Assembly: GCF_016616235.1 (NCBI RefSeq)
Contig: NZ_CP067100.1
Coordinates: 3,717,001 to 3,781,000, forward strand
Source: Bradyrhizobium diazoefficiens
GTDB lineage: Bacteria; Pseudomonadota; Alphaproteobacteria; Rhizobiales; Xanthobacteraceae
DNA: 64,000 nucleotides
Reading direction: 5' to 3'
The position numbers were made by a program, and so were the translations under genes. The notes under the pieces are model-generated. The model was not told the origin of the DNA and did no database searches. It worked only from the letters and a program-made list of their open reading frames with translations. This document shows positions 40,118-49,964 of this stretch, piece by piece (the stretch's first letter is position 1; every line of letters starts with the position of its first letter).

Positions 40118-40388
40118 TTTTCTTCTCAAATGGACCAAAGCTTTGCGCGATTGCGGCGTTGTGCGGGCACTGCTGCTCGGGCGGCGCTTTGCCGCGCGCC
40201 CAAGTCCGGACGACGAATGTGATCTGACGCGGCCCCATCGCGTCCGCGATGGAAGCCTGCGCGCTCTCCAGCCGTTTGGCCAATCCGCTGGCGCTCAGGT
40301 CCAGCACCGCATCGGCGGCCAAAAGGGAGATCGACAGGACCGCGATCGCCGCAGCGACGGCCATCGCCTTCCATTCTGGTGACTGCAT
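40068..40388 (-). CDS. Doubtful small ORF running into the tRNA
   Basis: A 106-residue frame with a plausible hydrophobic N-terminus (MAVAAAIAVLSISLLAADA) that could be a membrane anchor or signal peptide. Its last residues, ARGFEPPTPSLPD, are antisense translation of the tRNA-Pro gene, a well-known annotation artefact. Either the real gene has lost its natural stop or this is not a gene. Otherwise the stretch 40118-40516 shows no supported feature. Confidence 0.3.
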   Translation of the reverse strand: MQSPEWKAMAVAAAIAVLSISLLAADAVLDLSASGLAKRLESAQASIADAMGPRQITFVVRTWARGKAPPEQQCPHNAAIAQSFGPFEKKMVGARGFEPPTPSLPD

Positions 40389-45129: not shown

Positions 45130-45214
45130 CTCAATTGACGCGCGGCAGCTTGGTCACGGAAGCAAAATAGTTTAGTCAATCAAGCGTAACGCGATGATTA
45201 GAGCGTAGCTCCCG

Positions 45215-46327
45215 ATGATACCCGCATGCCTCTCCGACGAGTGGACCCTTTGCCCGGAGAGAGAGGACATCTCCGCTGAATTCACGAGGCTGCTCACCGC
45301 AGCCCAGGAGGGCGGCGCCACGATCGCAGAATGTCTGATGATCGCGCGGCAGCTCAAGCGGGGCGACGAGCAGTCCTGGCATCGCGAGTGGAAGAAGCTC
45401 GCACGCGTGAACCGGCAGCGCGCCGAGGCTGCGTTCGCGGAAGGCCACATGGCGACGGCGCAGCGCAACTGGCTGCGGGCCTTGAATTACTATGGTGCGG
45501 CGGCGATGCCGCTGGATCCGGCCGACGAGCGCCGCTGGGTTGCGGTGCTCGCGATGCAGGAATGCGCCCGTCGCTATCTTTCTGCGCGCGGCCCGGCCGG
45601 TGAAGTCGTGACGATCCCCTGGCTCGGCGGTCATTCCCTGCAAGGCTACTTGCTGCCCGCGCCGGCGGCGAGTGAGCGGGCTCCGACCGTGATCTGCATC
45701 GGCGAGCCCGGCCACCGCAAGGAGGAATTCCTGTTCAAGCTGGCGCCGCATGCGCGCGAGCGCGGATTCTCGATGCTGGCGCTGGACCTGTTCGGCGACC
45801 AGCGCGACGATTATCTCGACGCGCTGTTGCGGCGGCGGGATCTCGAGAGCGCGATTCCCGCCGTGATGGATTATCTGGAGACCCGCCGTGACGTCGATTT
45901 CGATCGCGTCGCGATCCTCGCCGACGGCTGGGGCTCTTCCTTCGTGGCGCGCGCGGTGTTGCAGGAGCCGCGGCTTGCGGCCGCCGTCTGCGACGGCGGC
46001 CTCTGGGACCTGCACGAGCGGGCCTTCTTCGCCAGCCGGTTCGCAATGAACGACGTCAGCATCGTCCCGGTGCCGCATGCGCCGCTGATGGCATCCGGCG
46101 CCGATTGTCCGGTGCTGATCACGCTGGGTGAGGACGGCTGGCTCAAGGCCGATCGGGCCCGTCAGATCGTCCAGACGTCCCGGCTCGGCAGCAGGTCGGA
46201 TGTCATGCTCAAGGTGTTCACGGCGGCGGAGACCGGCGCAGCGCAAGCCCATGCGGACAATCCGAGCCTTGCCAACGAATACATCTTCGACTGGTTGGAA
46301 TCGCGGCTCGGCATGGCGCGCGTCTAA
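45215..46327 (+). CDS. FrsA-like alpha/beta hydrolase, probably inactive
   Basis: A 370-residue protein resembling the FrsA / 2,6-dihydroxypseudooxynicotine-hydrolase group: a helical N-terminal half, then VICIGEPGHRKEEFL and an alpha/beta hydrolase core. Where the nucleophile elbow GxSxG is expected it reads ILADGWGSS, so Gly238 replaces the serine. The acid region DCPVLITLGEDGWL is recognisable. It may be catalytically dead, use another mechanism, or be a binding protein. Confidence 0.8.
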   Translation: MIPACLSDEWTLCPEREDISAEFTRLLTAAQEGGATIAECLMIARQLKRGDEQSWHREWKKLARVNRQRAEAAFAEGHMATAQRNWLRALNYYGAAAMPLDPADERRWVAVLAMQECARRYLSARGPAGEVVTIPWLGGHSLQGYLLPAPAASERAPTVICIGEPGHRKEEFLFKLAPHARERGFSMLALDLFGDQRDDYLDALLRRRDLESAIPAVMDYLETRRDVDFDRVAILADGWGSSFVARAVLQEPRLAAAVCDGGLWDLHERAFFASRFAMNDVSIVPVPHAPLMASGADCPVLITLGEDGWLKADRARQIVQTSRLGSRSDVMLKVFTAAETGAAQAHADNPSLANEYIFDWLESRLGMARV

Positions 46328-46438: not shown

Positions 46439-46945
46439 TCAGAAGTCGAGGCTGAGGCGGACGCAGGCCTTCTCGAGACGGGTTTTCAGCATCGCGAGCT
46501 TGGTGGTGAATTCGGTGAGCTCGTTCTCGTCGAATTCCTGGAAGACGAATTCCTTGATGGTTTTGTACTGCTCGTTGAGGCTCGCCAGGTGCTTCTGTGT
46601 CTTCTCGGTCAGGGAGAGCCGGACCACCCTGGCGTCGGTCGGGGACGGACGCCGGCGCAGCAGGCCCTTCTTTTCGAGCAGCTTGGACTGGGTGGTGACG
46701 AAGGACGGATCGACGTGGAGCAGCTTGGAGACCACGTTGACCGGGATGCCGTCGTCCTTGTCGAGGTCGGAGATCGCCATCAGGATCAGCCATTGCGGGC
46801 CGCTGATGCCGAGCGTTCTGGCCCAGAACTGACGCAGCTCCTCCAGATACATGTTGATCGACGATATCTCCCAGGTGAAGCGCCTGATGATATCGAGATT
46901 TCCGATGGAGCGCAGGCGCGCTCCTTCCTTCCTCGTTGCGGACAC
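46439..46945 (-). CDS. MarR-family transcriptional regulator
   Basis: A 168-residue winged-helix protein: GPQWLILMAISDL, then the recognition region VNVVSKLLHVDPSFVTTQSK and the wing RRRPSPTDARVVRLSLT. GTG start at 46945 behind GGGAG. It is divergent from the porin gene across 405 bases that hold a large AT-rich palindrome. Ligand and targets unknown. Confidence 0.9.
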   Translation of the reverse strand: MSATRKEGARLRSIGNLDIIRRFTWEISSINMYLEELRQFWARTLGISGPQWLILMAISDLDKDDGIPVNVVSKLLHVDPSFVTTQSKLLEKKGLLRRRPSPTDARVVRLSLTEKTQKHLASLNEQYKTIKEFVFQEFDENELTEFTTKLAMLKTRLEKACVRLSLDF

Positions 46946-47128: not shown

Positions 47129-47156
47129 GCTTATCAAATAAACTATTTTGATTAGC
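47129..47156. promoter_or_regulatory. AT-rich palindrome between marR and porin
   Basis: A 28-base imperfect palindrome whose arms are GCTTATCAAATA and TATTTTGATTAGC (47129-47140 and 47144-47156). It lies 184 bases upstream of the MarR start and 195 before the porin start, near the middle of the 405-base divergent region. The rest of that region shows no gene. MarR proteins bind such palindromes. Confidence 0.4.
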
Positions 47157-47350
47157 AGAATGACCCATGCATATTGATCCGTGACGGTGGGGGTACTCGA
47201 TCGTCCCGTTGCAGGTGGTTCGCTCACGTCCCGCGCGTCGAATGCGGGTGTGTCCGAAAGCGCGAAGCGGCCGAGCGGATTTGAAGAGACGGAGATCTGG
47301 GGGGCCTCACGGTCCGGTCTTCGCAAAATGAGCAACTTGGAGGTTTTTAA

Positions 47351-48874
47351 ATGAAAGTGGTGAAGAGCCTTTTGCTCGGCACTGCGGCGGGTCTGATCGC
47401 CGTCGGTGGAGCCCAGGCGGCCGATCTTCCGGTCAAGGCCAAGGCGGTCGAGTACGTGAAGATCTGCACGCTGTACGGCGCGGGATTCTACTACATTCCG
47501 GGCAGCGACACCTGCATCAAGCTCGGCGGCTATCTGCGTGCTGAAGTGGCGCTCAATGCCGGCGGCAACTACAACGCCCAGTACAACGGCGTGTTTGCGG
47601 CGAACAACCGCCTGACCAACTACTACTCGATGCGCGCTCGTGAAGATCTCAACATCGACACGCGCACCGCGACCGAGTACGGCGTGGTCCGCACCTACTT
47701 CGATGCGGTCTTCACCTGGACGACCGGCAGCTATATCGGCACCGGCTCTGCCACAGGTACCACCGCCTACAGTGGCACGGTGGCCGGCACGACCAGCATC
47801 AACCCGACGGACGGCGGCATCTCGGGCGGCGCGCTCGGCGTCTACTACGCCTTCATCCAGTTCGCCGGCTTCACCATGGGCAAGGCGGTATCGCAGTTCG
47901 ACGCGCCCTGGATCAACTATCCCGGCAACAACTTCGACCAGCTGGTCGGCGGCAGCGGCTCGACCAACGGCGTCGCCCAGTTCACCTACACGGCTGATTT
48001 CGGCCAGGGCGTGACGGCCGCGATTTCGGCGCAGGACCAGACTCAGTTCTTCACGACCAACATCTGGAACACCGCCGGTATGAGCACTTCGGGCGTGCTC
48101 GGTGGCGCCTACGGCTCGAACGACATCGGTGGCACCCGATCTCCCGACCTCGTCGGCATGGTCCGCGTCGACCAGGCCTGGGGCATGTTCCAGGCGTCGG
48201 TTGCCGCGCACGACAACCACGCCGCCTACTATGGTGCGACCGAAGTCACCGGTCACCCCGAAGACAAGTGGGGCTGGGCCGTTCAGCTCGCACTGTCGAT
48301 CAAGAACATCCCGACCGGTGCAGGCGATGTGATCAACGTCTCGGGCGTCTACACCGATGGCGCGAGCCGCTACAACTTCCAGTCGCTGGCTGCGACCAGC
48401 TACTCGATGTTCGGCAGCTCGAACGCGGCCTATCAGAGCATCGGCTTTGCCGGCGTGTCTGACGCGGTGTTCGGCCCCGGCGGCGGCATGGAGCTGACCA
48501 AGACCTACGGCTTCCGTGGTGCCTTCACCCACAACTGGAGCCCGTACTGGAACACGGCGCTGTACGGCGCGTGGGCTGCGGTCAACTACAGCGGCACGGC
48601 CAAGGGCCTGATCTGCGGCAGCGCCGCGTTCGCCACCCTGACCGGCACCTGCAACCCGGATTTCAATATCGGCCAGGTGGGTGTCATCACCCGCTGGACG
48701 CCGGTGAAGAACCTGACCTTCTCGGCTGACTTCACCTACAGCCATCTCGACCAGAAGTACTCGGGCGTGATCACGACCCCGGCACTGACGTCGGTTGCCA
48801 AGCCGGCGGCCACGTACGAGCTGAAGGACCAGGACACCTACAGCCTGCTGCTGCGCGCCCAGCGCAACTGGTAA
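47351..48874 (+). CDS. Outer-membrane porin (Porin_2 family)
   Basis: A 507-residue outer-membrane beta-barrel porin. It has a Sec signal peptide ending GGAQAAD, the family start YVKICTLYGAGFYYIPGSDT with a cysteine pair (Cys39, Cys55), and CIKLGGYLRAEV. The many aromatic-rich alternating strands end in a terminal LLLRAQRNW, whose last residues fit the outer-membrane sorting signal. The Shine-Dalgarno TTGGAGG is strong. A strong terminator follows directly. High, abundant expression is typical of this family. Confidence 0.95.
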   Translation: MKVVKSLLLGTAAGLIAVGGAQAADLPVKAKAVEYVKICTLYGAGFYYIPGSDTCIKLGGYLRAEVALNAGGNYNAQYNGVFAANNRLTNYYSMRAREDLNIDTRTATEYGVVRTYFDAVFTWTTGSYIGTGSATGTTAYSGTVAGTTSINPTDGGISGGALGVYYAFIQFAGFTMGKAVSQFDAPWINYPGNNFDQLVGGSGSTNGVAQFTYTADFGQGVTAAISAQDQTQFFTTNIWNTAGMSTSGVLGGAYGSNDIGGTRSPDLVGMVRVDQAWGMFQASVAAHDNHAAYYGATEVTGHPEDKWGWAVQLALSIKNIPTGAGDVINVSGVYTDGASRYNFQSLAATSYSMFGSSNAAYQSIGFAGVSDAVFGPGGGMELTKTYGFRGAFTHNWSPYWNTALYGAWAAVNYSGTAKGLICGSAAFATLTGTCNPDFNIGQVGVITRWTPVKNLTFSADFTYSHLDQKYSGVITTPALTSVAKPAATYELKDQDTYSLLLRAQRNW

Positions 48875-48900
48875 GCTCAAGGTCGCTCCGATCCGATGAA

Positions 48901-48929
48901 GCCCTGGCGGGACACCGCCGGGGCTTTTT
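48901..48929 (+). terminator. Rho-independent terminator of the porin gene
   Basis: GCCCTGGCGG and CCGCCGGGGC form a ten-pair stem (one G-T) with a GACA loop, followed by TTTTT, 27 bases after the porin stop. Confidence 0.9.
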
Positions 48930-49011
48930 CCGGATGCGGCACGATTTCGGAAAAACGATGTGCCCGCGGCCGATGAAGACGAGCCATGCGATTCGATCGG
49001 CTTCAAACTTA

Positions 49012-49040
49012 TTTACTTACCTGAGTTAATCAGCTATATA
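49012..49040 (+). promoter_or_regulatory. Promoter candidate for the small RNA
   Basis: TTTACT (49012-49017) and TATATA (49035-49040) are spaced 17 bases apart, a reasonable sigma-70 layout in locally AT-rich DNA. It would start transcription at about 49047, exactly where the first hairpin of the candidate RNA begins. Confidence 0.5.
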
Positions 49041-49046
49041 GTCTTC

Positions 49047-49132
49047 AGCCGATTACGAAAGTCACGGCTCTTAGCTTCACGCTAAGCCTCCAGAAACCTC
49101 CGGCGATGCCCCGCCGGAGGTTTTCGTTTTTT
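49047..49132 (+). ncRNA. Candidate trans-acting small RNA
   Basis: About 86 bases with no reading frame. Hairpin 1: AGCCG (49047-49051) with CGGCT (49065-49069). Hairpin 2: CTTAGC (49070-49075) with GCTAAG (49081-49086). Then an unpaired CCTCCAGA linker and a strong terminator. It has its own promoter candidate and lies between the porin terminator and a gene on the other strand, so neither neighbour explains it. The exposed CCUCC can pair with Shine-Dalgarno sequences. I do not recognise a named family. Confidence 0.6.
49094..49132 (+). terminator. Strong rho-independent terminator
   Basis: AAACCTCCGGCG (49094-49105) pairs perfectly with CGCCGGAGGTTT (49112-49123), with a six-base loop, then TTTTCGTTTTTT. 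Read on the other strand the T tail is short, so it serves plus-strand transcription. It is separate from the porin terminator 165 bases upstream. Confidence 0.88.
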
Positions 49133-49195
49133 GGGCAGAGCGTTTCAAGCGAAGTGGATACCGGTCCGCGCAAAGAAAACGCGTCAGACAAGAAG

Positions 49196-49693
49196 CTAGC
49201 CGCGCATCGTGCGGACGCGTGAGTTCGGCCGGTAGGCGAGGCGGCTGTGACCGACGCAATAGGGCTGACCGTCGGGCGCAGTATTGCCGCAGAAACAGAA
49301 GTCCTCTTCGCCCGGGCTCGAGATCGGCCAACGGCAGTGGTTCTCGGACAATTCCAGCAGCGAGCAGCGATTGGCGTCGTCGATCGGCCCGGTCGTCACG
49401 GGTACATCGCTCTCGCCATAGATCGTGGCCAGCATCTCGTATTGCAGTCGCGGCACGGCGCGCCTCGCGCGGGCCGGCGCAAGCTCTCGCTCGAGCTTGC
49501 GGTCATCCCCCGATCTGCCGCGCGTCAGATTGAGCCGGGACAGCTTGCCGATCACGGCATTGCGGCTGACGCCGATGTCGGCGGCGATCTCGCGGCAGGA
49601 CAGGCCGGCCTCGAAGTGCCGCTTCAGAAGTTCAATTCGTTCGTCAGTCCAAGTCGGTGAAGTCGGTGAAGAAGTTGGTGAGAGAACAGGCAT
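49196..49693 (-). CDS. GcrA-family cell cycle regulator homologue
   Basis: A 165-residue protein. The N-terminal helix-turn-helix is WTDERIELLKRHFEAGLSCR, then EIAADIGVSRNAVIGKLSRL, the conserved GcrA DNA-binding region. The C-terminus has CRWPISSPGEEDFCFCG and PYCVGHSRLAY, the family cysteine/histidine cluster. GcrA binds sigma-70 at methylated GANTC promoters to control cell-cycle genes. The canonical core starts near residue 14, and the ATG at 49693 is the nearest upstream. Whether this is the primary GcrA or a paralogue is unclear. Confidence 0.85.
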   Translation of the reverse strand: MPVLSPTSSPTSPTWTDERIELLKRHFEAGLSCREIAADIGVSRNAVIGKLSRLNLTRGRSGDDRKLERELAPARARRAVPRLQYEMLATIYGESDVPVTTGPIDDANRCSLLELSENHCRWPISSPGEEDFCFCGNTAPDGQPYCVGHSRLAYRPNSRVRTMRG

Positions 49694-49766
49694 TGTAACG
49701 GTCCCAGGTTTGCAGATGTCGGCCATCCGCATCGCAAGATCCGTCCGCCTCACGTCCGGCGCGCGC

Positions 49767-49964
49767 TCACGTCCTGCCATTGTCGCGAATCGACAAAAGC
49801 CCGTCCTTGATGGCGAGACGGATGCCTTCCTCGATCAAGGTACGTGCGACGCCGGGAACGCTGGTGCCGTGGGTGCCCTGTCTCACCAATTTCTCCAGAT
49901 AGGTGATGGTCGAGAGCGCCAAGGTTACGGGAATGCGGTCAGTCTCGGCTTTTTCGGTGGCCAT
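49767..49964 (-). CDS. Small possible DNA-binding protein
   Basis: A 65-residue product (RIPVTLALSTITYLEKLVRQ, then SVPGVARTLIEEGIRLAIKD). The strand-then-two-helices pattern resembles ribbon-helix-helix repressors, though no family is certain. ATG at 49964 behind AAGAGG. It lies upstream of the GcrA-like gene on the same strand, so the two may be cotranscribed. The 50046-50068 hairpin in the following gap is unexplained. Confidence 0.6.
   Translation of the reverse strand: MATEKAETDRIPVTLALSTITYLEKLVRQGTHGTSVPGVARTLIEEGIRLAIKDGLLSIRDNGRT

Follow-up and report, generated by a model that had tools for sequence, protein, structure and literature searches.

A predicted anti-Shine-Dalgarno small RNA adjoining a porin gene in Bradyrhizobium

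Between a porin gene and a convergent gcrA-like gene of Bradyrhizobium diazoefficiens, a promoter-like sequence is followed by two hairpins, a CCTCC and a terminator. Does this stretch form a small RNA (sRNA) gene, and if so, on which mRNA would its product act? We followed up both questions in the window, the whole 64,000-nt stretch of DNA that was analysed, and in related genomes.

Gene structure, predicted fold and conservation

The features of the candidate gene and its upstream flank are as follows.

48900..48929, plus strand: the porin's own terminator-like hairpin, from sequence and conservation; not listed by the scanner, separate from the sRNA
48975..48989, plus strand: upstream box GAAGACGAGCCATGC, conserved (identity 0.94, 45 loci)
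49009..49032, no strand assigned: operator-like motif of 24 bp, roughly palindromic, with two 11-bp units spaced 13 bp apart; overlaps the -35 element and the spacer
49012..49017, plus strand: -35 element TTTACT, from the sequence; TTGACT in homologue L063
49035..49040, plus strand: -10 element TATATA, from the sequence; small changes only across loci
49047..49131, plus strand: predicted sRNA of ~85 nt, from fold, conservation, covariation and reading frames that are not kept
49047..49069, plus strand: hairpin SL1 (AGCCG...CGGCT), from fold and covariation
49070..49086, plus strand: hairpin SL2 (CTTAGC...GCTAAG), from fold and covariation
49083..49092, plus strand: proposed pairing region TAAGCCTCCA, around the unpaired CCTCC at 49087-49091, its 5' part within SL2
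49093..49132, plus strand: intrinsic terminator and T tract, from the scanner and covariation; ACCTCC is repeated in the 5' arm

The two promoter hexamers are separated by 17 nt, which places the expected start near 49047. The terminator/promoter scanner picked up the sRNA terminator (one such site, with 0.9 expected by chance in that region) and missed the promoter, as its hexamers are weak under the E. coli rule; what supports the promoter is its conservation, together with the TTGACT of L063. The predicted transcript 49047-49131 has a minimum free energy of -36.6 kcal/mol and folds into SL1, SL2, an unpaired linker at 49087-49092 and a terminator stem of 12-13 pairs that begins at 49093. 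Each base of the CCTCC has a predicted unpaired probability of 0.7 to >0.9, and the linker is predicted to be unpaired across copies as well (median 0.87, n=117, among the matches listed). The fold of 49047-49140 is 4.0 sd better than dinucleotide shuffles, with none of 200 as good. In this 94-nt fold a longer SL2 absorbs part of the CCTCC, a pairing that is lost when the fold is trimmed to the predicted transcript.

Identity to the window was profiled over 45 loci of the genus (L007-L035 and L063-L078), which also served for the reading-frame profile. Between 48975 and 49124 it stays at 0.78-0.98, falling to 0.18-0.63 on either side, with the exception of the separately conserved hairpin that follows the porin gene (0.85-0.97). 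Of 265 genomes of the genus searched at the DNA level, 240 gave a match at E <= 1; the 150 matches listed, taken to be one per genome, reach E <= 3.8e-16 throughout. The conserved block runs from the upstream box, 5' of the sRNA promoter, to the terminator.

Covariation was counted on an alignment of 52 loci, with the structure named beforehand, and compared with 500 shuffles. Across the three helices 97.3% of cells are paired. One G-C pair of SL1 is replaced by A-U in 15 of the 52 loci; in SL2, U-A becomes C-G in five and A-U becomes G-C in two; in the terminator, A-U becomes G-C in 18, all these counts being of sequences and not of independent events. The percentage paired, the cells with double changes and the covariation score lie above all 500 shuffles, a comparison in which counting on a named structure leans towards that structure and in which related sequences can beat shuffles without any structure. 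The number of pairs with a double change is not unusual (127/500 shuffles as high), and further pair types are fewer than usual (494/500 as high). RNAalifold called the terminator and no other helix on the genus alignment, probably as a result of gaps that put SL1 out of register. L060 and L064-L067 have a damaged SL2, and in L072, L073 and L076 its base is altered.

Three reading frames were considered as coding and rejected. The plus-strand frame 48960-49085 has internal stops in 32/45 homologues, with lengths modulo 3 of 11/17/17, and the minus-strand frame 49045-49191 has them in 36/45. The minus-strand frame 49077-49331, which overlaps gcrA, is open in 29/45 but has lost its start in 41/45 (CTG); its lengths modulo 3 are 10/16/19.

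What the preliminary description had read from the window alone is borne out by these comparisons. The promoter TTTACT-17-TATATA is present and lies within the conserved block, despite the scanner; the predicted 85-nt transcript folds into the two hairpins, unpaired CCUCC and terminator that had been described, with 12-13 pairs in the terminator stem; and the claimed separation from the porin terminator holds, the porin having its own conserved hairpin. The compensatory changes in hairpin arms, named there as a check, occur in SL1, SL2 and the terminator across the 52 loci, and, as stated, no reading frame uses the stretch, none of the tested frames being kept across homologues. The sequence thus contains what is looked for in a trans-encoded base-pairing sRNA: a promoter (by conservation), a terminator and a conserved non-coding structure.

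Genomic setting and linkage to porins

The element lies among the following features of the window and, for the last line, of the same genome.

46439..46945, minus strand: MarR-family gene (PF12802, PF01047; Pfam), divergent, candidate regulator
47131..47154, no strand assigned: the same operator-like motif in the porin promoter, from the matrix; among the best sites of the window
47335..47346, plus strand: porin Shine-Dalgarno (SD) region ACTTGGAGGTTT, proposed target, from complementarity and start-site comparison
47351..48874, plus strand: porin (Porin_2, PF02530; Pfam)
49196..49780, minus strand: GcrA-family gene (PF07750; Pfam), convergent
49767-49964, minus strand: gene for a 65-aa protein with no Pfam match above cut-off and no NCBIfam or PDB match
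~6,697,657-6,697,743 of the genome, minus strand: second sRNA-like element (L002 / L314), 5' of the third porin

The order porin, element, gcrA-like gene and 65-aa gene is found in 30/30 loci (the window's own included), and in another set a porin lies upstream of the element in 40/40. All 20 longer stretches hold the MarR gene, porin, element, gcrA and the 65-aa gene, with gcrA 1.5-3.2 kb from the element in 11 of them. Of the 67 loci with room to see it, 66 have a divergent MarR gene ahead of the porin.

Two observations concern the far side of the element. The 65-aa protein shows 95-100% identity wherever it is seen in loci of the genus, with ~55 nt of upstream region nearly invariant in 30 loci, and by eye may be a ribbon-helix-helix protein. 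Positions 49137-49199, adjoining the sRNA, match four Bradyrhizobium plasmid records and one Xanthobacter record at 84.6-87.9% and probably represent a dispersed repeat.

With a covariance model, matches were found in 156/391 genomes of the family, representing 15/47 genera (E <= 0.001), and at the order level in 12/297 genomes, ten of them in the family (E <= 1e-4). In 20 medium-scoring loci (eight of the genus, 12 of other genera) the linker and terminator are recognisable and the preceding hairpins differ; 18 of these lie within 600 nt of a porin end, and two have a porin piece ~2.3 kb off. Weak model matches outside the family occur in G643 and G732; the one in G643 (L293) has a terminator that lacks CCTCC, and no neighbouring porin was found.

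To scan named genomes for the linkage, we used a pattern restricted to linker and terminator; it gave 118 stretches among the matches listed, not a census. In 111 of these a Porin_2 gene lies upstream on the same strand; the porins reach the C-terminus, and the CCUCC follows 22-639 nt past their end. Six of the seven copies without a porin have <700 nt of upstream sequence. L197, from a Hyphomicrobiales MAG, combines promoter, operator-like motif and element, and no neighbouring porin was found, an arrangement compatible with an RNA that acts in trans. In ten of the 111 loci, nine from Rhodopseudomonas and one from Bradyrhizobium sp. U87765, the CCTCC comes only 22-41 nt after the porin end, and there the element lies where the 3' end of the porin mRNA must be. 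Among the matches listed, then, the 3'UTR position of a 3'UTR-derived sRNA is seen in these ten loci, and in the window the element has its own promoter. The preliminary description had proposed a separate sRNA gene with its own promoter and did not mention a porin association: comparison strongly supports the gene and promoter, but the element is not independent of the porin.

The second element is a weaker model match in the same genome (29.5 bits, E 0.007), and its T tract ends 250 nt upstream of the third porin's start codon, on the same strand. It occupies the same place in this and eight other genomes. Relatives were found in 21/146 genomes of the genus (E <= 0.001), several via the main sRNA; the porin starts 286-369 nt downstream of the match start in nine of 12 loci, and the other matches are L325, which is the main sRNA, L323, which follows a porin, and L322.

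Complementarity to porin start sites and a common operator-like motif

Among the matches listed, porin starts are readable in 85/118 loci, and 67 of these 85 carry ACTTGGAGGTT, which is complementary to the sRNA linker; the linkers, mostly AAR-CCUCC-A/C/G, are complementary to the porin start in turn. The ACTT part of the porin start site is not known to be needed by the ribosome. For two of the three porins in the window's genome the predicted duplex with the SD site has -14.2 and -16.0 kcal/mol. As background we took 359 genes that a simple ORF rule yields in the window plus 400 kb of that genome, the window porin possibly among them: seven and none equal these energies at the first ATG, 25 and three with the best of up to eight starts. 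For the third porin the predicted duplex with the main sRNA is poor (-8.3), 298/359 genes being at least as good at their best start. The pattern TGGAGGYTT-N2-8-ATG has eight sites in the 7.67-Mb genome, two of them porins, and its reversed control two. TGGAGGYTT also stands at the start of three proteins, in L079, L082 and L085, that begin signal-peptide-like by eye and may be further targets.

At the second element, seven of nine porins carry ACTTGGAGGT at the start site, the exceptions being the third porin of the window's own genome (CAGAGG) and that of L320. Linkers such as AAACCUCCAAGU face ACUUGGAGGUU and match ACTTGGAGGT past the SD core; the energies here also count part of the terminator arm and cannot be set against those of the main linker.

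Several results count against a specific pair that co-evolves. Cognate linker-SD pairs do not outperform permuted ones (mean -14.59 vs -14.63 kcal/mol; 308/500 permutations as good). Among the matches listed, 49/466 control genes from these loci equal or exceed the porin's pairing, which ranks first in 52/85 loci. The porins of L104, L106 and L159 carry GGAGATTG with no matching change in the sRNA, and L157 and L161 pair over 6 bp only. On these sequences linker and target show no cognate covariation, and the CCUCC would be expected to pair with many SD sites. The missing covariation, the neighbours that pair as well and the unanswered SD changes together make the pairing a family-wide constant, which fits porin repression and does not prove it. 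The earlier anti-Shine-Dalgarno guess gains a likely target by complementarity, the adjacent porin.

The operator-like motif at 49009..49032 is the best operator-matrix site in the window over both strands, at 28.9 and 24.4 bits, where promoters of its own type trained the matrix. In the porin promoter, we identify by eye a -35 element TTGATT at 47148-47153 and a -10 element CATATT at 47170-47175. A first operator consensus, judged by block shuffles, was superseded by a matrix with dinucleotide shuffles and then by a cleaned matrix built from sRNA promoters only (15 clustered sites), with column permutation as control. Applied to the MarR-porin intergenic regions, the cleaned matrix puts 39 of 47 non-redundant regions above 95% of the column-permuted matrices, and no permuted matrix of 300 reaches the real mean. 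The earlier matrix, noisier in that its training set held ~10 junk sites from 3'UTR-type loci, placed 37 of 47 regions above 95% of their own dinucleotide shuffles and 24 above all 40.

Another of the best sites of the window lies at 40380. A further one, operator-like and at 45159-45182 (minus strand, 14.0 bits), precedes an FrsA-like gene (45215-46327), which is perhaps a third member of the same regulon. In 400 kb of the same genome one site reaches 13.0 bits and the next 10.8, and the regions of the other two porins hold no good site (best 0.7 and 7.4 bits). An operator shared with the promoter of the 65-aa gene (TACCTGAGTNA, three sites in the genome) was dropped, because that promoter is not among the window's top ten operator-matrix matches.

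Proposed function, alternatives and relation to known sRNAs

We hypothesize, as the probable reading, that the element encodes a trans-acting anti-SD sRNA which is made from its own promoter and represses porin translation under a common regulator. Transcription, pairing in the cell, repression and the identity of the regulator are what we infer; they build on gene structure, predicted fold, covariation, porin linkage, complementarity and the common motif. A sigma-70-type promoter would yield an RNA of ~85 nt whose exposed linker, AAG-CCUCC-A, would pair with the SD site ACUUGGAGGUUU of the adjacent porin mRNA, and with that of a second porin mRNA. Since the exposed CCUCC matches the porin ribosome-binding site, the sRNA probably lowers porin translation, by blocking ribosome entry. 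The operator-like motif common to both promoters points to one regulator for the porin and its brake, for which the divergent MarR protein is the natural and most likely candidate. With MarR or another regulator on both promoters, porin mRNA and antisense brake would be made together and porin synthesis would be capped; in the 3'UTR form, the same cap could arise through processing or through pairing of the two ends of the mRNA.

The main targets of a genuine trans-acting anti-SD sRNA could instead be other mRNAs, the porin linkage then reflecting descent from a porin 3'UTR together with shared control. The CCUCC fits any strong SD, the permutation test shows no cognate covariation, six of the eight extended-complement sites are not porins (three with signal-peptide-like starts by eye), and L197 has no porin found beside it. 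We hold this unlikely, though the most serious of the alternatives: two porins fall within the top 0-7% of the 359 genes, ACTTGGAGGTT is kept in most porins whose start was readable among the matches listed, and the linkers of the second element match ACTTGGAGGTT past the SD core. That the linker and terminator act purely in cis, carried by read-through transcripts and serving 3' stability or 5'-3' pairing within the porin mRNA, seems improbable. Such a role would suit the ten listed copies close behind a porin, and also L167, where the predicted duplex between the element and the SD region of the porin beside it spans 9 plus 4 bp (-19.3 kcal/mol). Yet in the window the porin is followed by a conserved terminator-like hairpin of its own, the element carries a separate promoter and operator-like motif that are also conserved, and SL1 and SL2 covary.

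The same covariation, in the form of compensatory changes in SL1 and SL2, makes it very unlikely that only a terminator is kept, possibly a bidirectional one serving the convergent gcrA-like gene, with fortuitous hairpins and promoter. The terminator is indeed the best-kept part, and SL1 and SL2 are not recognisable in medium-scoring loci, but promoter, upstream box and hairpins are nearly as conserved, and gcrA ends 1.5-3.2 kb away in over half of the longer stretches. We give least credence to a decoy, in which the GGAGGUUU terminator arm would mimic the porin SD and titrate another anti-SD sRNA: the 3' arm GGAGGTTT equals the porin SD core, but in the predicted fold it is locked in the 12-13 pair stem.

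The preliminary description had suggested a search of Rfam, and no family was reached at the gathering threshold: the best scores for the window sequence were 22.0 of 55 bits (rnk_pseudo, RF01772) and 17.4 of 80 (FsrA, RF02273), and nine further loci gave two tRNAs and nothing else. Genome G027 (9,105,828 bp), which we take to be that of B. japonicum USDA 110, carries a copy at 5,527,003-5,527,090 on the minus strand. Further sRNAs, named BjrC, are reported from the Bradyrhizobium/Rhodopseudomonas lineage (Madhugiri 2012). For BjsR1-BjsR10 of B. japonicum USDA 110, Table 1 of PMC5082802 has no entry at the G027 copy (nearest 5,605,382), and the copy's position is absent from the main text of a Bradyrhizobium paper on transcription start sites (PMC4842269). 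By sequence, fold and position, the element is not SmelA075/SmelA099 as described, any Rfam family or BjsR1-BjsR10. Among the papers listed, no title or abstract opening named sRNA control of a porin in Bradyrhizobium.

In enterobacteria, sRNA control of porins is textbook knowledge, and CyaR is an enterobacterial sRNA that is controlled by CRP and is not known to be linked to its target. The element resembles CyaR acting on ompX, a pair named with anti-SD loops in PMC3927594, in its (here predicted) pairing with the SD of an outer-membrane protein mRNA, but unlike CyaR it adjoins the proposed target. The Rhizobiales anti-SD sRNAs SmelA075/SmelA099, as described in the same paper, have three or four hairpins whose loops are all of the CCUCCUCCC type; they likewise expose a CCUCC-type anti-SD sequence by means of hairpins, whereas the present element has a single CCUCC, placed in the linker ahead of the terminator, adjoins a porin and lacks a series of hairpins with CCUCCUCCC loops. 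The Caulobacter sibling sRNAs SisA-D, which repress many targets via a 10-mer with an anti-SD signature (PMC12559287), are alike in being alphaproteobacterial and in that signature, a likeness by description; the word 'porin' is absent from the text of that paper. As with OppZ and CarZ, which repress their own gene or operon from its end (PMC9438474, PMC7398697), some copies here lie in a porin 3'UTR, but in the window the element is preceded by a promoter and the porin followed by a separate terminator-like hairpin. MalH, whose targets are given as OmpA and OmpC (PMC9438474), and MicX offer a parallel, again by description: the same genomic place gives a 3'UTR RNA in one host and an own-promoter RNA in the other (PMC9438474), although theirs is a maltose operon setting in other bacteria. 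On sequence, the element thus apparently forms a conserved, undescribed sRNA family that would work like described anti-SD and 3'UTR-derived sRNAs.

More tentatively, at somewhat less than even confidence, MarR gene, porin and anti-SD RNA may form a module whose RNA family moves between the porin 3'UTR (mostly in Rhodopseudomonas) and a free-standing gene with the porin operator (in Bradyrhizobium), with a second element before another porin. It would be a traceable passage, in either direction, between a regulatory 3'UTR and an sRNA gene that autoregulates the parent. If this is true, the module would offer a compact, testable case of outer-membrane control in soil and nodule bacteria, and its 3'UTR form, own-promoter form and second element would provide a natural series for the origin of sRNA genes.
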